Below are positions 6,409 to 59,305 of a stretch of 64,000 nucleotides of DNA, one piece after another. Position 1 is the first letter of the stretch. Every line of letters begins with the position of its first letter. The notes under the pieces were generated by a model. That model had not been told where the DNA came from. It saw only the letters and a program-made list of their open reading frames with translations, and did no database searches. The translations under genes were made by a program, and so were the position numbers. The DNA comes from Cordylochernes scorpioides (taxonomy: Eukaryota > Arthropoda > Arachnida > Pseudoscorpiones > Chernetidae): the NCBI GenBank assembly GCA_030710605.1, contig CP092870.1, positions 96,500,592 through 96,564,591 of the forward strand, in the 5' to 3' direction.

Positions 6409-6614
6409 AATGTGTCTATTTTTATCATTATGACTGGAAGCACTACTCATTAGCAGACTGACTTGGCTCCAATATGAAATGGCCGCCTCTGACATTAGGA
6501 ACAGACACCATGTACAGCTCTTCCTAACATGGAGTACAAACATCCTGTATTCCTGAAGACCTTACAGAATATAAACACAAGGTAATAAGACCAAATCCAA
6601 ATAAATAAATAGTG

Positions 6615-6656
6615 TGTGACGTTTCGGTAACAGCATTGTTACCATCTTCAGACAAA
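6615..6656 (-). ncRNA. Hammerhead ribozyme motif (class 1, left arm)
   Basis: On the minus strand the core reads CUGAAGA, then a stem GGUAAC/GUUACC, then GAAACGUC. This fits the CUGANGA...GAAA consensus. One extra U lies between the core and stem II. Helix III would be the 2 bp AC/GU, which is self-complementary. Confidence 0.6.
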
Positions 6657-6679
6657 AGTACTTTTTTCAGTCAGTACTT

Positions 6680-6722
6680 TTGTCTGAAGATGGTAACAAC
6701 GCTGTTACCGAAACGTCACACA
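6680..6722 (+). ncRNA. Hammerhead ribozyme motif (class 1, right arm)
   Basis: The core CUGAAGA is at 6684-6690, stem II is GGUAAC/GUUACC and GAAACGUC is at 6710-6717. Helix I can pair UGU just upstream with ACA just after 6717. The predicted cleavage site is after C6717. Confidence 0.65.
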
Positions 6723-6911
6723 CTATTTATTTATTTGGATTTGGTCTTATTACCTTGTGTTTATAATCTATAATCCAAATTGTGCCTTATCAACCTTACA
6801 GGGTACTATCAGCCGGGCCAGCTGAGTCAAAGTTTTTTAGTGAATGTTCTCCAACTAATTCATCTGGGTTTGGGACCGGCAAAGGAGGAGCTTAGTAACC
6901 TTTAAAATACC

Positions 6912-24499: not shown

Positions 24500-25824
24500 C
24501 GAGGTGTGTTCAAAAGGTATCGCGAAATTTGAATTTTCGCGGGTTACGTATATTCGAATTTCGATCTTTTTCTGGCTTTATGTTGGTACTCATGTCTCTC
24601 ACTTATGCCGACAAGCTCGGCCATTTTGAATGTTTACTTAATTGTTGACAGCTGCTTTGCTTGCGGGTGTTTTGGATCGTCTTCGATTTTTACCTATTAA
24701 AAAAAAAAATGGATCAAAGAACCTGTATCAAATTTTGTGTGAAAAACGAAATTAAGTGCGCGGATGCATTCCGAATGTTGACTGTGGCATACGGAGAAGC
24801 TACCTTGGACCGAAGCAACGTTTATCGGTGGTACAAAATGTTCTCAGAAGGCCGAGAAGATGTGAACGACGAAGAGCGTGCCGGACGCCCGAGCACTTCA
24901 ACAACAGACGAAAAAATTAATGAAGTGGAGAAAATAATATTGGCCAATCGTCGAATCACCGTTAGAGAAGTTGCTGAGGACCTAAACATATCGATTGGCT
25001 CGTGCCATTCGATTTTTATCAATGATTTGGGCATGAGACGGGTCGCCACGAAATTCGTACCAAAATTGCTCAATTGCGACCAAAAACAGCATCGCATGAA
25101 CATTGCTAATGAGATGTTGGACTCTGTCCGCGACGACCCAAATTTGCTCCAGAGGGTCATAACTGGTGACGAAGCGTGGGTTTATGGTTATGACGTGGAA
25201 ACCAAAGCTCAATCATCTCAATGGATGCTGCCGCACGAACCAAGACCGAAAAAAGCGCGCCAAGTTCGGTCGAATGTGAAAGTTTTGCTGACAGTTTTCT
25301 TCGATTGCAGGGGCGTGGTGCATCATGAGTTCTTGCCACAGGGTAGAACGGTCAATAAGGAATATTACCTGCAAGTTATGCGCAATTTGCGCGAAGCAAT
25401 CCGCCAAAAACGCCCGGATTTGTGGAAGAACAAAAATTGGCTTTTGCACCACGATAACGCCCCTGCTCACACATCGTTGCTTGTGTGCGACTTTTTGGCC
25501 AAAAACAACACACTAATGATGCCGCAGCCACCGTATTCCCCAGAACTGGCCCCCTGTGACTTTTTCTTGTTCCCTAAACTGAAGAGGCCCATGAAAGGAC
25601 GACGTTACGCTACGCTTGACGAGATAAAGACGGCATCGAAGGAGGAGCTGAAAAAGATTTTTAAAAATGATTTTTTGAAGTGCTTCGAAGATTGGAAAAA
25701 CCGTTGGCACAAGTGTATAATATCTCATGGGGATTACTTTGAAGGGACAAAATAGGTATTCATGAATAAATAAATAATTTTTGAAAAAAACACAAAAGTC
25801 GCGATACTTTTTGAACACACCTCG
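24500..25824 (+). mobile_element. Mariner transposon, about 1.3 kb, apparently intact
   Basis: The ends CGAGGTGTGTTCAAAAGGTA and (inverse) CGAGGTGTGTTCAAAAAGTA are 19-of-20 identical and continue as TCGCGA. TA precedes the left end at 24498-24499. The right flank is TTA, so the target duplication is imperfect. The length and single open frame fit an autonomous mariner. Confidence 0.9.
24709..25755 (+). CDS. Mariner transposase, DD34D, intact
   Basis: This 348-residue frame is a cut-and-paste transposase of the mariner family. The N-terminal half holds two helix-turn-helix regions (around residues 5-50 and 70-115) joined by a GRPSTS linker, and would bind the terminal repeats. The catalytic triad is visible: D in ITGDEAWVYGY, D in LLHHDNAPAHTS and D in YSPELAPCDFF. 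Exactly 34 residues separate the second and third D. The start chosen is the ATG at 24709 (MDQRTCIKF), because the frame upstream opens with no ATG. The protein stops at TAG 25753-25755, shortly before the right repeat. There is no internal stop or frameshift, so activity is possible. The nearest well-known relatives are SETMAR-type mariners. Confidence 0.93.
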   Translation: MDQRTCIKFCVKNEIKCADAFRMLTVAYGEATLDRSNVYRWYKMFSEGREDVNDEERAGRPSTSTTDEKINEVEKIILANRRITVREVAEDLNISIGSCHSIFINDLGMRRVATKFVPKLLNCDQKQHRMNIANEMLDSVRDDPNLLQRVITGDEAWVYGYDVETKAQSSQWMLPHEPRPKKARQVRSNVKVLLTVFFDCRGVVHHEFLPQGRTVNKEYYLQVMRNLREAIRQKRPDLWKNKNWLLHHDNAPAHTSLLVCDFLAKNNTLMMPQPPYSPELAPCDFFLFPKLKRPMKGRRYATLDEIKTASKEELKKIFKNDFLKCFEDWKNRWHKCIISHGDYFEGTK

Positions 25825-31833: not shown

Positions 31834-31876
31834 TGACGTTTCGGTAACAGCGTTTGTTACCATCTTCAGACAAAAG
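31834..31876 (-). ncRNA. Hammerhead ribozyme motif (class 1, solitary arm)
   Basis: On the minus strand CUGAAGA is followed by a GGUAAC/GUUACC stem and GAAACGUCACAC. It sits in a single Penelope-type arm (31793-31885) that opens with ACACAAGGTAATAAGACC and lacks the facing partner. Confidence 0.6.
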
Positions 31877-32215
31877 TACTGAATGAGAAATTTTACCACA
31901 ATAGAGGAGAGCTTCAGATCCTGAACTCTTTAAAATAGAATCTTCAAGTGATGGCTTAGCATCAACATTGATAGTCTTTTTATTTTCTTCTTAATTTACC
32001 ACCAGATCCCAGTACAATTTTACTTTTGTACTATTTTTACAGGGATAAGTTGCCTTTCTGAAAAAAAAATCAATTTAGATCTCTAGCTTTCGAAAATAAA
32101 TGCTAGAGATCTAAATAAAAAAAATCAAAAATAGAGATTTATCCTTAGAAACCTGATGATTTCCCATTATAATTGATACAAGGAATAATTTTATTGAATT
32201 ACCTATTTACATATT

Positions 32216-32459
32216 ATCGTAAAGATAGAGGCTGCCTGGCCGGCATTCATATTTATATGAAAAATAGACACTTCGGCCAGTTGGAGTTTTTTTTTTTAAT
32301 TTTCATATGAGAACGCCCTTACAACCTCAGAACAATTTTTAACACCTTGCCAAATGCTTTATTTTTATTTACTTCTCCTGACGAAGACAAAAGATTTTTG
32401 TCGAAACATTGAGAAAATAAAAAACTCTAACTGGCCGAAGTGTCTATTTTTCATATAAA
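32216..32459. mobile_element. Palindromic Penelope-type retroposon (class 2), 12-bp target duplication
   Basis: TATTTACATATT is duplicated at 32204-32215 and 32460-32471. A left extension (CGTAAAGATAGAGG and GCCTGGCCGGCATTCAT) precedes a short left arm. The right arm carries the hammerhead region and ends CTGGCCGAAGTGTCTATTTT. The left arm is truncated before its hammerhead. The same extension is present at 50476. Confidence 0.75.
32373..32416 (+). ncRNA. Hammerhead motif (class 2) with a damaged helix III
   Basis: CUGACGA at 32378-32384 and stem GACAAAA/UUUUGUC are perfect. The sequence after the stem is GAAACAUU, where the other class 2 copies have GAAACGUU, so the C-G pair of helix III is lost. 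Probably inactive. Confidence 0.5.
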
Positions 32460-34654: not shown

Positions 34655-35953
34655 CAAGGTTGGGTCAATAAGTAATGCACAATTATCAATAATTATTTTA
34701 TTTGACAAACCATAAACATTGTATATATGAATACCTAACTATTAGCTATATATCATTCAATATATCTCCTCTGTACACATTTGGTCCAGTGATCTTTCCA
34801 ACTCACAACTTTGGTAAAATGCTACATCTTGCTTTCTGAACCACCCTCTAACCTCATGGAGTAACATTTCATCATTTTCAAATGTTCTACCGCGTAGAGA
34901 ATTATTTAATTTACCAAACAGGTAGAAGTTGGAAGGAGCCAGGTCAGGACTGTAAGCTGGGTGAGACATCAAAGTCCATCCATATCGGAAAATTTGAGCC
35001 AATGTCTGTTGCGCGGCGTGAGGTTTTGCATTGTCCTGATAAAATTTGATTTGACAGTCTTTTATACCAATCATTTTTGTTGAAATGGATCTTTTGAGCT
35101 TTTCTAATGATTTAAAATATCTTTCCTTGTTCATGGAAGTATATTTTTCAAGCATGTCCATGAATGTGAGTCCATCTTCGTCCCAAAAGACCGTGATCAT
35201 GATTTTGTCTTTGGAAAGGGAAAGCCTTGGTTTTTTCTTGACTGGAGACATTTTATGGGTCCATTGCATTGATTGACGCTTTGAAGAAGGGTCATAATGA
35301 TAAACTCAAGTCACATCACACGTTATGACTCCTTTAAAGGCCTCAGAAGCTGGTCATTGGGTAAGATTCGATGAGGTCTAAACAAATTTCTTTCCGAGTT
35401 TGCATCATTTCTCGTGTCAGAAGCTTTGACACCCATTTTGAGCACAATTTTCGATAGCCAAGATCTGAAAGTAGTTTAAGAACACTTCCTTTGGGGATTG
35501 AAAGTTTTTTCATCAATTGATATGTCGTTATTGTCCGGTTATTCTTGACAATTTTCTCAACAAGAGCCAAGTTTTGGTCTGTTGTGACAGTTGAAGGTTT
35601 ACCTGGCGTCTCTTTGTCATGAAGATCAAAATAACCTTTCTGGAAGCGCTGAACCCATCTCTGTATAGTGCTTCTAATCAAAGTTTCGTTTCCATATACT
35701 GGCTGAAGTTTTGAGTGAATGGTTGTGGCTGAAATGTCATCGGACTTAAAGAGGAACTCGGTCACCGACCGTTGTCGGATTCTTGTGTTCACATTAGGCT
35801 CCATATCTAAAAAATTACAGAAGATAAATGAATTCTGATTGAAGATATGAAAAGCAGAGTGTTTTATCTACCATAAAATATGTATTTTATGATAATATAT
35901 TCTTTATATATTTTGCTATGGGTGATTATGCATTACTTATTGACCTAACCTTG
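34655..35953 (-). mobile_element. Mariner transposon, 1.3 kb, inactivated
   Basis: Terminal repeats CAAGGTTGGGTCAATAAGT and (inverse) CAAGGTTAGGTCAATAAGT differ at one base. TA flanks both ends (34653-34654 and 35954-35955). It is full length but the transposase is broken. Confidence 0.92.
34757..35804 (-). pseudogene. Mariner transposase, disrupted, third catalytic residue N
   Basis: The N-terminal part (35804 to 35343) begins MEPNVNTRIRQRSVTEF and holds the helix-turn-helix region with GKPSTVTT. The C-terminal part (35269 to 34757) holds FYQDNAKPHAAQQ and AYSPDLAPSNFYLFG. Between them the frame shifts near 35340 and 35300, and a TGA replaces the expected W in TCDVTWVY. Thirty-four residues follow the second D, but the third catalytic position is N. 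These lesions make it non-functional. It differs clearly from the mariner at 24500. Confidence 0.9.
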
Positions 35954-41963: not shown

Positions 41964-44475
41964 TCAACACTTTCGCCTCAAAATATACATCCTGCAGAAT
42001 CTATTAAACTTAATGAATTGGTCTTTATTGCAAGCAGCTTGTTTTGTATTAGTCAGGTAAAGTTGGTTTTCTTCCCTTAGATCAGAAGTTAATGGACAGT
42101 CTATCAGAAGATGTTCAGGGGTTTATTGTTCGTTTCCACAAGTGCATGCAGGTGAACCAATTTTGCCAATTCTAAACAAATATGTGTTAAAGTCACCATG
42201 TCCAGTAAATAATTGAACGTTATAAAAGTTGGGTTGAACATAGTTAGGAATTCTTGAAGTATCAAAGAATCCCTTGACATTATCATTGGCACCCCCATAG
42301 TATTCCTCAAATTTCTGGTTTATAAAATTAGATATAATTTTTCTTTTAGTTGTATCTGATTTTTTGTATCCAATATTTATTTTTAGTATATTTGTCTCAA
42401 TAAAATCCGTGAGCTTTGGTGTTCTAGCAACAATATGAGTACAGTTTGAAGATGTTGAATTATAAACCTGTGTACTGTGCTTCAAAATTTTGTACTGCAG
42501 AGAGTTTAATTTATCTTTGACTTTTTTGGGTATAAAGTTATACCAGATCGTGGAACCATAAGTTAGTGAACTTCGAAACAGTGTCTTATAGAGTTCTATT
42601 CTTCTTTTACTGTCCAGTCCCCATGCTTTCCCGGTTAATCCAATTAGGTTTCCACTAGCTCTATCTGTCTTAGTAATAATCTCATCAATATGGGGCACAA
42701 AATCCAATTTTGTTTTTATTTCTATGATTTTTAAAAGTTATTCCCATAATCTTCAGTTTTTCTACCCGATTGGCAGTGATAGTGTTCAGAATTTTTGCAG
42801 CTATTTTGCTATTAAACAAGTATAAGATTTTCGTTTTCTCTTCAGAGATACGGTCAAATTATTGTTCCCACACCAGTTTAATATTCTCCCCATGACCTTT
42901 CCTGTTGTATTCCGAAGTTCTGTCAAGTTGTTTGCCCAACATATCACAGTTATATCATCCGCATAAGCAATGATTTCACTGTTTGATTCTGAATAGTTAT
43001 TCAATAAATCGTTTAGAATAATATTCCAAATTGTAGGGGATATAGGCCCACCCTGTGGACATCCCTTGCTTAATTTTTTATGGGTTTCATTTGATGAGTA
43101 TCTAAATATCACTCTTCTATTATTAAAAAAAGACTGTAGTAGTTTTATTATTGAAGCTTGAACGTTGTCTTCATCTAGTCTTTTCAGCACCATCGGCCAC
43201 CATTGCATTGTCGAACGCTCCACTTATATCAACTGCGATTATAGCTGTATATTCTTTGTTTTTATGTTCTAGAGCTATTTTGACAATTTCATTTAATGCA
43301 GAGATGGTAGATCTTGATCTTCTAAATCCATGTTGACGATTGTTAAGCAGATTCGAGTCTTCATAAAATTTTATAAGTTTGTTGTTAATTATTTTTTCAA
43401 ATATTTTGGAAATGTTTGAGTTGAGACAAATGGTTCTGTAGCTTTTATAAATATTCATGTCTGTTTTACCTGGCTTGGGAATAATTATTACCTCAGATTT
43501 TTTCCATTCATTCGGATAATAATTTGAATCTAAGCATTTTTGAAAAAGTTTCACCAGTATTGGAACTATTAGTTGTTTAGTATGGTTTATCATATTGTTA
43601 GAAATATTATCAATTCCAGGCGTTTTCTTTGAGTTTAGCTCATCAATTATTCTATTTACTTCATTGGGCGTTATTGTTATATTTTCTTCATTATGAAATC
43701 CTAGAGTATAGTTCCTTATGTTTTTGTGGAAGGTTGTGTCTTCATTATCTCTATCATCGGGGAAAAGGTTGTTCAAAAGTTCCGCTGTCTTCTGGAATCG
43801 TTCTTCATCTTTATTTACTTCTAAAATTTCCAAAAATCCTTTTCGGTTAGAACCGTTTTTAATATTTTTGTATACCCTGTATAAATTTCCATATGGGTTT
43901 TTTGATTTGATGTCCTCTAAGAAAAACCTCCAAGACATTCTTTTAGCCTTATTTATTTCCCTGACGTATTTGTTTCTTGCACTTTTATACTGTTGTTGAA
44001 TATGGATAGAGGGATTTTTTGCCCGATAATAGGAGTTACGGAGGTATTTACAATAGCTCTCAAGGCGGGTCAAGTCCGCGTTCCACCATCTGTTTATGTT
44101 GTTTTTTATTGGTTTATTTTTTCTTAGTTTAAGAGTATTATACGCTGCTTCAATGAGCGTGTTCGAAAGTTCTTTTACCGCGCTATCGACGTCTTTCCTT
44201 GTATTTGCTGTATCTAAAAAGTTTTCAATATTATTTTGATCTATTTTATTGAAATTCTGGCCAAAATTTGACCAATTCGCCTTTTCTTCACTGAATTTCC
44301 ATGTGGAATAATTAGTAGCTGTGGTGAAATTATCAGTTGTATGTACTTCATAGATTATTGCTACATGATCAGAGATCTGCGATATTTGTTCTGTGTGCCA
44401 GTCTCTGATAGCTGCTATTGCTTGTTTGTTAGTCAGCGTAAGATCAATCACACAAGCATGTATATAATATTGCAT
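41964..44475 (-). pseudogene. R1-like non-LTR retrotransposon ORF2, 5'-truncated and frameshifted
   Basis: Read on the minus strand, the fragment begins at the end of an APE-type endonuclease (CVIDLTLTN and SQISDHVAI). A linker is followed by the reverse transcriptase: KKTPGIDNISNNMI, NEWKKSEVIIIPKPGK, YRTICLNSNISKIFEK, NNRQHGFRRSRSTISAL, VDISGAFDNA, KGCPQGGPISPTIWNI and the active-site YADD. The C-terminal part has ACTCGNEQ, then HLLIDCP, a CCHC-like knuckle typical of R1-type elements. Frameshifts lie near 43200, 42835 and 42720, and a TAA interrupts at about 42120, after which the frame continues to a stop at 41964-41966. A TAAAA-type tail on the minus strand near 41806-41790 may be the 3' end. 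The first part of the endonuclease and ORF1 are missing. It is inactive. Confidence 0.88.
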
Positions 44476-44883
44476 GTATTAATATTTTAAAAAATAAATA
44501 TTTTTAATGTTTAAAGTAAATTGGGATGATTTATTAGACATAAAATAATAATCCGTATATAATATTTAAAAAAATAAATATTCAATATTTGAAGTAAATT
44601 GGGATATTTACGTCCAAAAAATGTATTAATAAACAAATATTTATAATTGTGTGTGGGAGAAAAAAAGGCTATTTCACACAGCGTGTGTAAAAGGATAAAT
44701 ATTCACATAATTGTGAGTGGGTGCACCAATCAATTCCTAATCGGTCAATGTTATCGATCAATTGGCAGTTGAGTGTTGGTTAGGGAGTAATTGATAGCTT
44801 TGTCACCTGACGCTTTGTTAACAAATCTTTACACACCTATAAGACGATTAACTTTTTTTTGTGCAACGTATTATATAGGTAGA

Positions 44884-49365: not shown

Positions 49366-50021
49366 ACAATACGTTTCTTTATTACGAAAACACCAAGAGC
49401 TTTCGAGTTCTCAATCTTCAACAGGATAAAGTTATAATCTAAGAGTGAGCAATATCTATGCAAATCTCACCTCGCGTGCTCACTCTTCTTCTTTCTTATC
49501 TCCTCTCAATCATATTAGGGTATCAAGCTTGTAGAGCTTGAGACTTGACAACCATCATGACTGGGTGAAGTAGAATGCGTTTGCCTTTGTCATTAAGACT
49601 GGGAGAACTACTCAGTGGCAGGCCGACTTAGCTCCAAAAGAAATAGCCGCCTCTGACATGAAGGAACAGACGCCATGTGCAGCCGCTCTTAACATGGGAG
49701 TACAAACGCTGCTCATCCTGTATCCCTGGAGCCCTTACAGGGTACTATCAGCCGGGCCAGCTGAACCCAGGTTTTTTACCGAGCTTGTTACTGCTCCTCC
49801 TCCTCCTTTTTCATCCGGGCTTGGGACCGGCAAAGGCGGAGTTCGCTCACTCTTAGTATAAATACCCATCTATGCAAATCTCACCTCACGTGTTACTCTC
49901 AATATAAATAGCCATTTCGTCTCCCTTGCTCACTCTTTGATTGTAATCTTACCCTGTTCAAGAGCGAGACCTCGAAAGCTCGTGATGTTTTCATAATAAA
50001 GAAACATATTGCGTAAGGTTT
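49366..50021. mobile_element. Facing Penelope-type class 3 ends enclosing a family B copy
   Basis: The left end (minus strand) carries CUGUUGAAGAUUGAG...CUCGAAAGCUC and the right end CUGUUCAAGAGCGAG...CUCGAAAGCUC. Outer arms ACAATACGTTTCTTTATTAC and its inverse match. Family B (49486-49848) lies between. Cores deviate from CUGANGA. Confidence 0.6.
49486..49848 (+). repeat. Family B copy
   Basis: It follows the family order from TTCTTTCTTATCTCC to GGGACCGGCAAAGGCGGAG. It is well conserved and shorter in the 5' third. Confidence 0.8.
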
Positions 50022-50329
50022 TTCCGAATATTTTTTATAAAAGTAAATCTCAAATTTTCTTATATCTGAAAATATAATATTTCTAAATTTTGCCAAAGAA
50101 CACACACGCTATAAACTTTTAATAGGGAACTATACCTTTAGTATTTTGCTGCTCTGAGAATTTGGTTGGTGAAGGAATGATATCGGCATCCATTACCCGG
50201 AATCAAATACCGAATTGGATACTTTTTTTTCCGATAAGCCTTGAAATCAGCCTTTTCACTTCCATCAGCATTTAAAGACCCTTCGAGCAAATTCGACTCA
50301 TTTCATAACTCCTCGTAGGATTAAGGTAT

Positions 50330-50475
50330 TAAGACATTTCTTAATCGTGCAACTAAAAGTTGATGATGGCTTGCGCCATCTGTCGGAATAAATATCAACT
50401 AATCGTTGATTTAAAAAAAATATATTATTCCAGAATTGGACAAATACCTTATCTTGATTAATTAAGTAAAGCTAT
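50330..50475. mobile_element. Fold-back MITE family D, left part
   Basis: GACATTTCTTAATCGTGCAA through GATGGCTTGCGCCATCTGTC to GATTAATTAAGTAAAGCTAT. It is cut at the insertion point of the next element. Confidence 0.6.
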
Positions 50476-50551
50476 CGTAAAGATAGAGGTTGCCTGGCCG
50501 GCATTCATATTTCAATAAAAATAGACACTTCAGCCAGTTAGAGTTTTTTAT

Positions 50552-50597
50552 TTTCTCAACGTTTCGACAAAAATCCTTTGTCTTCGTCAGGAGAAGT
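50552..50597 (-). ncRNA. Hammerhead ribozyme motif (class 2, left arm)
   Basis: On the minus strand: UUCUC, CUGACGA, stem GACAAA/UUUGUC, GAAACGUU, GAGAA. Helix I pairs UUCUC with GAGAA. The loop differs from the right arm but stem II is kept. Confidence 0.7.
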
Positions 50598-50693
50598 AAA
50601 TAAAAATAAAACATTTGGCAAGGCGTTAAAAATTGTTCTGAGGTTGAAAGGGCGTTCTTTTTAACGCCTTGCCAAATACTTTATTTTTATTTA

Positions 50694-50740
50694 CTTCTCC
50701 TGACGAAGACAAAAGATTTTTGTCGAAACGTTGAGAAAAT
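50694..50740 (+). ncRNA. Hammerhead ribozyme motif (class 2, right arm)
   Basis: CUGACGA at 50700-50706 is followed by one extra A, stem GACAAAA/UUUUGUC (708-724), GAAA at 725-728 and CGUU at 729-732. Helix I is UUCUC (50695-50699) with GAGAA (50733-50737). Predicted cleavage is after U50732. Helix III would be AC/GU with no loop, so dimer formation is likely needed. Confidence 0.75.
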
Positions 50741-51069
50741 AAAAAACTCTAACTGGCTGAAGTGTCTATTTTTATTGAAATAATAAAAGCTATTTTGGTT
50801 CAATAATTCTCTCGTAGTGTAGTATGTAATCGAAGCTTTCCATGTACTGATAAGGGATAAATCTCGAAACCTCATGGTATACAGATTGGCCTTTTGTCTG
50901 AATTTGTCAAAATGAAGTATTGTGGGACATTATTGATCACAAATAGTACGTTCTGAACTGGGTTGATAAATCAAAATGCCTTGTTTCGATGTATTTTTAA
51001 AAGGGGAGGTGCTAATTTTGGTACATGAACATCATTCCCCCGTAAGTTTATGCAATACTATTTATATAT

Positions 51070-51260
51070 AAAACAACACTTGAAGTTACACCGCATGAGT
51101 TTCTTTTCAATGAAAAATCAAAATTTATTTCAAGGTGAAATATTGACTATTTCTAACCTTTTTGGATGAGGTATGAAAGGATGAATTATGAAGAGTAATG
51201 ATGAACGGAAAAATAAAAGTGTCCAGGGATGGACACATGGAATTTACAATCACAAGCCGC
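51070..51260. repeat. Interspersed repeat family H
   Basis: TTTCTTTTCAATGAAAAATC, GGATGAGGTATGAAAGG and AAAATAAAAGTGTCCAG match 33170-33500. Confidence 0.6.
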
Positions 51261-51524
51261 AGTGTATTATACTATTTATATATGCAATTATTAATAATAA
51301 CCACATCTCTAACTAGAGATTAACAGAATAAATTATATTTTCTCGTAGAGAATAGAAAGACAAACTTCAGGATGACGCAGCAATTTATTTTTATCAAAAC
51401 AAATTCAAACTTGCCTTCACAAAAGAATTAAAATACAATGAGAGAAAATTTTTGACGAGTAACAAACTATTGAAAATAATATTCTGTTGAGAGACTAAAT
51501 AATAAACATTCAAAAAAGCGTGAA

Positions 51525-52341: not shown

Positions 52342-53833
52342 CACTGGTGTCCAAAAAATAAGAAACTTTTGTTTTTAATGATATGTTTTAAAATATACAA
52401 CGCTAAAAGCTAAAAAGTAATTTAATTAGGTATTTTAAGTCGTAGAATTTATTTATCGCCACCATTCGATTCGGTAAAATTGAAAATATGCAAATTTTTG
52501 CTTGTCTTTATAAGTGTGCTATTTGGCGTTTCGTTTACCCCATCTAAGAATTGTCCAATTATAATTTTATTTAATCCTTAGTTAATTATGAGTTTACGAA
52601 AAATTTTAGTAGATGATTTAAAATGGAGAGCTGTTGTAAGAATGGAGGCAGGGCAATCACAAGTTGAAGTAGTAAAATGGCTAAATGTGAATAAATCTGT
52701 GGTCAGCAAAATATGGAAACAGTTCATTGAGACAGGAACCATCAAAAGAAAAGAAGGTTCTGGTAGAAAAAGAAAAACAGCTACCTCTGAAGATCGTTAT
52801 CTGGTCGTAACTGCCAAGCGCCATAGGGAGATGACAGCTATTCAACTCTCTAATGAACTCTCAAGTGCTACTGGAACGAGAATTTCAAGACAAACTGTTT
52901 ACCGAAGGCTTCACGAAGGTGCTCTTTAAGCAAGACGACCAATGGTCTGTATCCCTTTAACTTCTGCTCACAGGAGAGCCCGCTTGAATTGGTGCTTGGA
53001 ACATCACGCCTGGACTCATGATCAGTGGGCCAATGTTCTCTTCAGTGACGAGTCAAGATTTAGTTTAAACACAGATTCTCGACGAGTTTTCATCTGGAGG
53101 GAGCCTGGAACCCGCTATCATCCCAGTAACATCAGGGAAATAGACAGTTTTAGAGGGGGCAGTCTCTTAGTCTGGGCTGGCATCAGTTCTAGCAGACGCA
53201 CACCCCTCCACATTTTTTCTGGGGGCACTTTAACTGCCCAAAGGTACAGGGACGAGATCCTTGAGCCCTATCTAAGACCTTATAGAAATCAAATTGGTGA
53301 CAATTTAATTTTTATGGACGATAATGCTCGTCCGCATAGGGCTAGGCTAGTCAATGAATATCTCCAGAGTGAGAATATTCGAAGAATGGATTGGCCAGCC
53401 AGATCTCCGGACCTGAATCCAATAGAGCATGTGTGGGATGCTCTAGGGAGGCGTATTGGAGCTCGTCACCTCTCTCACAGAACCCTCGTTGAGTTAAGAA
53501 CTGCTCTATTGGAGGAGTGGGGTTTACTACCCCTGGACCTCCTCCAAAGCCTGGTAAACAGTATGAGGGCTCGCTGTGAGACCTTGATAGCTGTTAGAGG
53601 TGATCATACTCCCTATTGATATCTTATTTCTTTAAGATCTGGAACCTTAGCTTTGGGTATGTTGGTAATAATTTGCATATTTCATAATTTCAAATATTTT
53701 ATTTCATTTTCATATAGCTAGTCAAATTCTCCATTGTTTAAACTATTTGTATACTAAATTTTATATTTGTTAATAAATTAGCTTTTGAGAAATTTCAATA
53801 TTGGTTAAGTTTCTTATTTTTTAGACACCAGTG
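52342..53833 (+). mobile_element. Tc1-like transposon, 1.49 kb
   Basis: Terminal repeats CACTGGTGTCCAAAAAATAA and (inverse) CACTGGTGTCTAAAAAATAA differ at one base, with TA on each side (52340-52341 and 53834-53835). It encodes the transposase described next. Overall good preservation suggests a fairly recent insertion. Confidence 0.93.
52588..53619 (+). pseudogene. Tc1-like transposase, DD34E, one premature stop
   Basis: The N-terminal 113 codons contain a paired-type helix-turn-helix with GSGRKRKTAT as the linker hook. A TAA at 52927-52929 then stops translation in RRLHEGAL. The same frame continues without a shift at ARRPMVCIPL to the end, giving about 343 codons if the stop is ignored. 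Catalytic residues are D in FSDESRFSL, D in FMDDNARPHRA and E in SPDLNPIEHVWD, with 34 residues between the last two. The stop position usually holds a Y in this protein family (from memory). With one nonsense change it is a very young pseudogene, or the stop is a sequencing or allelic variant. Confidence 0.92.
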
Positions 53834-57467: not shown

Positions 57468-57530
57468 ATATAGGTTATATTTTAAAATAAAACTACAACC
57501 TTTCGCAATAAGTTTCTTTTATTGTGATAT

Positions 57531-57568
57531 GCGCGAGCTTTCGGGCTGGAGCCGCCCTTCTACAGGCA
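57531..57568 (-). ncRNA. Hammerhead-like motif (class 3, left arm)
   Basis: On the minus strand: GC-CUGUAGA, stem GGGC/GCCC, GAAAGCUC, GCGC. Helix I can pair UGC with GCG. The core has U where CUGANGA has A, so activity is doubtful. Confidence 0.4.
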
Positions 57569-57750
57569 AAATATGAAACATTTGATTCACGAGAGACAGT
57601 TATATACATTTGATTTGTTACAAATTTTAAATAAAATATCAGAAAGAAAAGTATTAAAAAACTACATAAATTATTACTATTTAACTTTGTTTAACAATTG
57701 GAAATAATTTAACCTTAAATTTCAATATTTTAATAAAGTTAAGTTTTAAA

Positions 57751-58347
57751 CTATGAATTGGATAAGCGAGAAATCTGATTTTTGTGGTATGGAATATGAC
57801 AAAATTGTTCTGGGATATCTATTCTACGATTAATGCTATTGTGTTGTTTGGAAATCAGCGATTCAAGGATTAATCTTTCAGATTTGGTGGTTATGTTACT
57901 GTAGTGGCAAGTTGGACTGTCTAAATTAAATTTGTGGCCGGTATTCATGGTATGTTGAAAAATGAGGGATCTTGGATCTTTGGTCTTCATATTGTAAGTA
58001 TGTTCCTTCAATCTTGTCTGTATTTTCCTGCTTGTTTCTCCTACGTATATAGATGGACAATCAATGCATGACACGGAATATATGGCATTTTTCTTCTGAA
58101 GGGGGTTCTGGTCTGTGGTCGATTTTGTGATGGGATTTCTAAGGATATTCCCGATGGTTCTTGGGGTGCGGAAAAAGAACTTGATTCCGTATTTCTTCAT
58201 TTCCAGGGCTATTTTTAAATTGGTTGGTGAATAATCAATATAACAGGTCGTTTTGAAAGTCTGCTGGGTTCTATGATGGGATGGATTGTAACAGTGTTGA
58301 TCGATAAACAGTGGGGGATAGCCAAAATTTCTAAGATTTCTGTAAAT
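57751..58347 (-). pseudogene. Penelope-like endonuclease, left-arm copy (5'-truncated)
   Basis: On the minus strand the frame is open from about 58347 (IYRNLRNFGYPPLFIDQHC) through TQQTFKTTCYIDYSP to the GIY-YIG domain. The first ATG is at 58200. Key features are KKNAIYSVSCIDCPSIYVG with ETSRKIQTRLKEH, that is the GIY-YIG strand pattern, the helix with its conserved R, and later an E in SERLILES. CIDC and CHYS supply cysteine/histidine positions typical of Penelope endonucleases. The domain nicks the target to prime reverse transcription. Lacking the reverse transcriptase, this copy cannot be autonomous, but the domain itself is uninterrupted. Confidence 0.85.
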
Positions 58348-58394
58348 TCACCCATTGCTCCCTCCCCAAATTTAAAGCAATAGAAAGAAATAAT

Positions 58395-58991
58395 ATTTAC
58401 AGAAATCTTAGAAATTTTGGCTATCCCCCACTGTTTATCGATCAACACTGTTACAATCCATCCCATCATAGAACCCAGTAGACTTTCAAAACGACCTGTT
58501 ATATTGATTATTCACCAACCAATTTAAAAATAGCCCTGGAAATGAAGAAATACGGAATCAAGTTCTTTTTCCGCACCCCAAGAACCATCGGGAATATCCT
58601 TAGAAATCCCATCACAAAATCGACCACAGACCAGAACCCCCTTCAGAAGAAAAATGCCATATATTCCATGTCATGCATTGATTGTCCATCTATATACGTA
58701 GGAGAAACAAGCAGGAAAATACAGACAAGATTGAAGGAACATACTTACAATATGAAGACCAAAGATCCAAGATCCCTCATTTTTCAACATACCATGAATA
58801 CCGGCCACAAATTTAATTTAGACAGTCCAACTTGCCACTACAGTAACATAACCACCAAATCTGAAAGATTAATCCTTGAATCGCTGATTTCCAAACAACA
58901 CAATAGCATTAATCGTAGAATAGATATCCCAGAACAATTTTGTCATATTCCATACCACAAAAATCAGATTTCTCGCTTATCCAATTCATAG
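58395..58991 (+). pseudogene. Penelope-like endonuclease, right-arm copy (5'-truncated)
   Basis: It mirrors the left arm. Two differences stand out: IYSM in place of IYSV, and a TAG where the left arm has CAG (TQ*TFKTT), so the frame is interrupted before the first ATG at 58542. From that ATG the 149-residue GIY-YIG region is open to 58991. Its arrangement and near-identity suggest both arms arose in a single event or are kept alike by conversion. Confidence 0.85.
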
Positions 58992-59172
58992 TTTAAAACT
59001 TAACTTTATTAAAATATTGAAATTTAAGGTTAATTATTTCCAATTGTTAAACAAAGTAAAATAGTAATAATTTATGTAGTTTTTTAATACTTTTCTTTCT
59101 GATATTTTATTTAAAATTTGTAACAAATCAAATGTATATAACTGTCTCTCGTGAATCAAATGTTTCATATTT

Positions 59173-59211
59173 TGCCTGTAGAAGGGCGGCTCCAGCCCGA
59201 AAGCTCGCGCA
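59173..59211 (+). ncRNA. Hammerhead-like motif (class 3, right arm)
   Basis: CUGUAGA at 59176-59182, stem GGGC/GCCC, GAAA at 59199-59202, GCUC at 59203-59206. It is the mirror of 57531-57568, with the same A-to-U departure in the core. AGCU forms the self-complementary helix III. Confidence 0.4.
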
Positions 59212-59305
59212 TATCATAATAAAAGAAACTTATTGCGAAAGGTTGTAGTTTTATTTGAAAATTTGTAGCGCAATTTTTTCGTTTACTTCAAATATAGGTT
59301 ATATA

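Follow-up and report, generated by a model that had tools for sequence, protein, structure and literature searches.

A 310-bp Head-to-Head Hammerhead Palindrome of the Pseudoscorpion Cordylochernes scorpioides as a Very Probable Shortened Penelope-like Insertion

Introduction

The closest described systems are the Penelope-like retroelements of the rotifer Adineta vaga and the element PAc of the lizard Anolis carolinensis. In the covered parts of the rotifer paper, an inverted pseudo-LTR beside direct ones, a 31-bp tail, a 9-bp target repeat, and head-to-head palindromes are described, and self-priming is proposed for the inverted repeats (PMC3846280). For the lizard Penelope protein, Frangieh et al. 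reported in-vitro cleavage and extension of both target strands, with the tail bounded by two start sites on the RNA; hammerhead cleavage was dispensable for insertion in vitro, and the hammerhead needed protein (PMC11167929). The parts of the lizard paper covered show two-strand extension and leave inverted copies undiscussed. Minimal hammerheads without helix III are known, from the covered parts of two further papers, in Penelope pseudo-LTRs and at thousands of dispersed sites in animal genomes (PMC7761336, PMC6155905).

The window analyzed here is a stretch of 64,000 nucleotides of contig CP092870.1 (C8 among the 24 contigs, 2.62 Gb in total, in which copies were searched). It contains a 310-bp palindrome with a hammerhead motif in each arm, which an earlier note on the sequence had described as a miniature palindromic retroposon.

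Structure and Identity of the Element

The element (50476-50785) includes an inverted repeat of two 125-nt arms (50508-50632 and 50658-50782), which are 98% complementary and separated by 25 nt. By comparison of the flanks, the 8-bp target repeat AAAGCTAT was found on both sides (50468-50475 and 50786-50793). The tail-bearing pseudo-LTR arm lies on the minus strand (50508-50658) and is longer than the tail-less inverted arm on the plus strand (50658-50782), so that the 25-nt "spacer" (50633-50657), without a counterpart in the other arm, is the excess length of the former. The head-to-head junction at 50657-50658 is private to this locus. A tail of about 32 nt is present at the left end only (50476-50507, minus strand). 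Together with the preceding base, the tail reads ATGAATGCC.., with the in-frame translation MNAGQATSIFT, which is presumed to open the Penelope reading frame; a tail of this nature has been published for other Penelope-like elements (PMC3846280, PMC11167929, in the parts covered).

The element is 310 bp long and without protein, as had been observed before, and the GIY-YIG frame is absent from it. Such frames (PF01541, above cut-off) lie upstream of the same repeat at two other loci, L074 (4676-5035, E 1.6e-07) and L075 (5352-5657, E 1.9e-05), and a third locus, L073, has GIY-YIG matches on the opposite strand. None of the copies analyzed, all of them short of full length, yielded a Penelope reverse transcriptase frame for this family. 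Retroposition, already proposed in the earlier note, is supported by the flanking target repeats and by 20,738 genomic copies of the tail. The anatomy is that of Penelope: short target repeats enclose pseudo-LTRs arranged as an inverted pair, one of which bears a tail. The palindrome is thus very probably one insertion of a Penelope-like retroelement, shortened to two head-to-head pseudo-LTR copies. Since both this anatomy and minimal hammerheads have been published, it belongs to a known kind, namely a Penelope-like element that is truncated at its 5' end and has its pseudo-LTRs inverted, with a known anatomy and a known ribozyme variant. The single element is ordinary for its class, and the set of its copies is more useful.

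Hammerhead Motifs

Read from the centre outward, each arm contains TTCTC-CTGACGA-A-stem II-GAAAC-GTT-GAGAA. Helix I has 5 bp, a single unpaired A separates the conserved core from a 6-7-bp stem II, and helix III is 2 bp long and loopless. The left-arm motif extends from helix I to helix I at 50553-50595 on the minus strand, and the right-arm motif occupies 50695-50737 on the plus strand, with a predicted cut after U50732. The CUGACGA, stem II of 6-7 bp, GAAAC, and helix I (UUCUC/GAGAA) claimed for both arms were borne out at these positions (minus 50595-50553, plus 50695-50737). The arms also differ at the stem II loop with pairing kept, as claimed, by one loop-adjacent stem II position that is A-U in one arm and G-U in the other. 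The core CUGANGA..GAAA..UH lies between helices I and II in both arms and is preserved intact in 120/150 genomic arms. The unpaired A between the core and stem II, which had been assigned to every copy, is found in 147/150 genomic arms, hence in most but not all, and a T takes its place in the window's second hammerhead family. A comparable unpaired base at this point also occurs in other Penelope motifs. Judged by its sequence, the arm motif appears to be a minimal type I hammerhead like those described from Penelope pseudo-LTRs, in agreement with the earlier note. The primary papers on minimal type I hammerheads of Penelope pseudo-LTRs and dispersed animal sites are reportedly those of Cervera and de la Pena (2014) and of Lunse, Weinberg and Breaker (2017).

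The pattern CTGANGA..GAAAC occurs at 6 places in the window against 0.52 expected from shuffles, so chance does not explain the motif. When a stem of at least 5 bp was required, 7 window places were obtained, compared with a mean of 0.25 in 60 Markov sequences; one of them, at 42756, is weak (5 bp) and probably due to chance. The Rfam hammerhead models gave no match over the window at the gathering score, nor over 50000-51300 at E<=10, for which our own explanation is that the curated models expect a fuller helix III.

Within the family, both partners of a stem II pair had changed in 0 of 1045 cells (mean 1.7 and at most 6 in shuffles), so stem II covariance has no support there; for helix I, the count was 2/750, taken without a shuffle control. 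A zero is expected of dead copies under neutral decay. Between the two hammerhead families of the window, stem II differs throughout and its pairing is kept.

In the predicted fold of a single arm, helix I and stem II are formed (z -2.7, -2.1) and part of the core is paired otherwise; the motif of the second family has a less distinct predicted fold (z -1.4). The two motifs of the element lie on opposite strands, so any one transcript has just one of them in sense. The 310-nt RNA is predicted to fold into a single hairpin of -199 kcal/mol, which would bury the ribozyme, so little activity is to be expected of the full palindrome at equilibrium. At the predicted hammerhead cut, there is no enrichment of insertion ends (4/85 in a 7-nt window, p 0.51; 5/164 within 3 nt); there is thus no sign that hammerhead cleavage sets insertion ends.

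Related Elements in the Window

A second copy of the same family, also head-to-head, was found at 32216-32459; it has a different junction, one hammerhead (32378, plus strand), and the target repeat TATTTACATATT at 32204 and 32460. The second hammerhead family, CTGAAGA-T-GGTAAC..GTTACC-GAAAC, is represented by an inverted pair at 6567-6792, flanked by the repeat ACCTTACA (6559, 6793) and with additional sequence on the right side alone, and by a lone copy at 31838-31869. A longer palindrome (57481-59291) is head-to-head with 98% over about 1786 bp, a 13-bp target repeat, an extra stretch of about 30 nt at the right end only, and one GIY-YIG frame (PF01541) per arm (57751-58347, minus; 58482-58991, plus). 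These three palindromes share the target-repeat layout of the 310-bp element and, as judged by eye, its one-sided tail. Beyond each frame of the longer one, a hammerhead-like CTGTAGA..GAAA was noticed by eye; it was missed by the strict scan, and its fold was no better than that of shuffles. Other transposon frames are located at 24649-25755, 34757-35867, 52930-53619, and 43171-44478, one with DDE_3 and one with RVT_1; the first two look mariner-like by eye, and the DDE_3 frame is Tc1-like.

Genome-Wide Copies

The tail pattern (about 32 nt, at most 3 mismatches) has 20,738 matches in the genome, and its reversed control has 0. A query with the whole palindrome gave palindromes at 40 places (best 40 of 3036 candidates). 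Because such a query selects palindromes, searches were anchored on the tail and the outer arm, without the hammerhead or the centre. In the first tail-anchored query (best 40 of 1077), an inverted arm lay at most 70 bp from the tail arm in 31/40; in the second (best 40 of 824), 20 places were analyzed and 17 of them had an inverted arm. The latter 20 (set C) were the best-scoring new ones among the 40, one near-copy being omitted. Altogether, 48 of the 60 tail-anchored insertions analyzed are head-to-head. The 12 places without an inverted arm within 70 bp comprise two copies with a GIY-YIG frame upstream (L051 and L069), three that look simply truncated (L066, L081, and L087), two with an inverted arm about 250 bp away (L061 and L088), and L050, L057, L089, L090, and L105. 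A search anchored on the hammerhead alone yielded 609 candidate places, of which 40 were scored.

The counts below refer to 82 independent palindromes, each picked for having a tail, tail-less palindromes lying outside the sample. Duplicate views (L015, L021, and L028) and near-copies (L014 of L004, L020 of L017, and L063 of L062) were dropped, L063 staying in the 31/40 above. Four loci already in set A (L044, L046, L056, and L072) are outside the 82 and are counted in the inverted-arm tallies of sets B and C and in the cut-site and end-cluster analyses. L074-L078 are longer views of L051, L069, L066, L059, and L057, respectively. Looser alignments, in which the tail arm overran the junction in some loci, were superseded by a stricter one, the partner-arm distance test still being on the looser.

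On contig C1 (103648875-103649180), three exact tail copies were seen on one strand, 137 and 136 bp apart. They may mark short pseudo-LTR units in direct tandem; dimeric cleavage is said to take place in such hammerheads when they are so arranged.

Insertion Statistics

A flank repeat of at least 8 bp was present in 56/82 palindromes, compared with 5.1% of 6642 mismatched flank pairs. A second tail occurred in 0/82, each palindrome having been chosen for one tail, and the tail-less arm ended at index 150-157 in 69/82, the tail starting at index 153. The tail arm was the longer one in 40 palindromes, the other arm in 40, and the two were equal in 2; in the palindrome-selected set (n=38), the tail arm was longer in 22 and the other in 14, and in the tail-anchored sets (n=47), these counts were 21 and 26. 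At 43 loci, the inner ends of the two arms had the same distribution (KS p 0.80) and were uncorrelated (Spearman p 0.34). The joins between arms showed an overlap in 37 cases, extra bases in 42, and neither in 3. Some index ranges were enriched in tail-anchored ends, namely 19-22 (8/85, p 0.0013), 26-28 (5/85, p 0.022), and 52-59 (16/85, p 4e-6), with p values uncorrected and windows picked after viewing the data. For the ends at index 19-22, a transcription start at the initiator-like TC|AGAAC was considered as a possible cause.

On the looser alignment, the distance between partner arms was 0.070, against 0.080 between loci (42 loci), and 0 of 5000 permutations were as low. Since this distance is ambiguous as to one or two templates, single polymorphic sites were used. 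Partner arms agree well at index 63 (53/57), 119 (65/76), 145 (73/77), and 147 (55/67) and are at chance level at index 84 (32/60, 0.56 expected) and 127 (43/79, 0.53 expected). Index 127 is a CpG, with the T allele in 37/82 tail arms and 16/79 other arms. Index 84, at the hammerhead stem II loop, carries a common G/T difference with no linkage to other sites at p<0.01; the mismatch there between partner arms may be due to two templates or to recurrent change.

Discussion

The head-to-head copies probably arose by target-primed reverse transcription from both target strands, with two start sites, followed by joining of the cDNA ends. The protein of the element would cut both target strands, and reverse transcription would proceed from both 3' ends. 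The first cDNA, begun some 33 nt into the presumed reading frame, would for that reason carry the tail, and the second, begun at the border between the pseudo-LTR and the frame, would have none. Both would extend toward the 5' end of the RNA, halting at different points; their ends would be joined via short overlaps or a few extra bases, and gap filling would create the target repeat. The hammerheads would be passengers copied from pseudo-LTR RNA; in tandem transcripts of that RNA, their cleavage may occur through dimers or with the help of protein. That the process of the lizard element made these copies, that the arms come from separate RNAs, and that the hammerheads are active is what we infer. 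Priming from both strands is favored by the equal arm lengths (40/40) and the absence of second tails (0/82), taken with the two-strand extension by the lizard protein. What counts against it is that the start sites of the lizard system in vitro are alike on both strands (PMC11167929, parts covered), while here none of 82 palindromes has two tails. A stricter form, in which each head-to-head copy results from two separate reverse-transcription events on the two strands of one break, with two RNA templates and a strict division into an inner (tail) and an outer start site, is put forward tentatively, as something we are slightly inclined to doubt.

The main competitor is self-priming, proposed for rotifer Penelope (PMC3846280, parts covered), in which cDNA or antisense RNA folds back and copies itself into an inverted partner. 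It would account for the slight excess of similarity between partner arms and their agreement at subfamily sites, and for a locus such as L026, where the arms are merely 0.9% apart. Fold-back of a tail-primed cDNA, however, predicts a longer tail arm and a copied second tail; neither was seen (40 against 40, n=82; 0/82), which again favors two-sided priming, and 28 of 60 partner pairs have different letters at index 84. We read the likeness of partner arms as probably that of two RNAs of one subfamily, copying within one molecule being possible at some loci, L026 among them, and recurrent mutation could produce the mismatches at index 84 and 127. On this balance, self-priming is unlikely, though a serious contender. 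A retrozyme, a small non-autonomous element spreading via circular RNA made by the hammerhead, would likewise be small, non-coding, and high in copy number, and animal retrozymes are thought to borrow the Penelope machinery (PMC7229834, PMC7761336, parts covered). This origin is very improbable here given that inner ends are unenriched at the predicted cut, as stated above, that the arms are inverted and lack direct tandem repeats, and that helix III is a loopless 2 bp.

The earlier note inferred that the inverted dimer moves as a unit; such a stable retroposon would be transcribed and reinserted whole. The palindromic form is indeed common, and some near-copies have one junction in common (L004/L014, L017/L020, and L062/L063). 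The junction of the 310-bp element, however, as probed with a 34-nt pattern across it, has 2 matches in the genome, its own locus and L041, the latter with 3 mismatches and the arm roles swapped, the other arm being longer. Junctions, arm roles, and sizes vary between loci (108-458 bp, median 276, for the 47 tail-anchored palindromes, L063 dropped), as do the inner ends among 85 palindromic places, where exactly equal breakpoints were found for L004/L014, L017/L020, and L033/L043. Both breakpoints agreed within 1 nt in 42 of 3570 pairs of places, most of them near index 20-22 and with differing bases between arms. L004/L014 and L017/L020 lie close together on C1 with alike flanks and hence look like local duplications. 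Each of the pairs L004/L014, L017/L020, and L062/L063 lies on one contig with the same or nearly the same junction and was apparently duplicated after insertion. Mobility as a unit is largely refuted and keeps hardly any probability; each insertion seems to create its mirror image afresh, with no separate tiny mobile element. Least credible of all, to the point of being negligible, is a chance or microRNA-type hairpin. The Rfam families that match around the element at E<=10 include many microRNA precursors, but every match is below the gathering score, and the microRNA models are drawn by the long hairpin; the hairpin itself is a consequence of the inverted pseudo-LTRs, whose sister copies occupy tens of separate places.

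Searches of the open-licence literature for a two-sided explanation of Penelope inverted repeats led to the rotifer and lizard papers described above. The head-to-head share (48/60), the arm lengths (40/40), the second tails (0/82), and the varied junctions bear on the origin of these repeats, and the copies suggest a simple source for the minimal hammerheads dispersed in animal genomes. If the stricter form of two-sided priming holds, inverted pseudo-LTRs would be its direct product and not that of self-priming, many of the dispersed minimal hammerheads would be such short insertions, and the genome would preserve a large natural experiment on Penelope integration.

Comparison with Known Systems

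As far as the covered parts of the sources describe them, the metazoan non-LTR retrozymes (PMC7229834) share with the present element a small size, the absence of coding capacity, a type I hammerhead, and a high copy number. They consist of direct tandem repeats with a canonical hammerhead and form circular RNAs, in contrast to the inverted pair with a minimal hammerhead found here. With the published minimal hammerheads of Penelope and dispersed sites, the conserved core, a short or absent helix III, the Penelope context, and scattered non-coding copies are held in common, and the present motif differs in one unpaired base between the core and stem II. The likeness to the Penelope families of Adineta vaga (PMC3846280) and to PAc of Anolis carolinensis (PMC11167929), again in the parts covered, extends to pseudo-LTRs of which one is inverted and one carries a 30-40-bp tail, to short target repeats and head-to-head palindromes, and to GIY-YIG in longer copies and a hammerhead in the pseudo-LTR. 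Unlike those elements, the one described here retains only the two pseudo-LTR arms, and such minimal pairs are the usual form in the tail-anchored samples.
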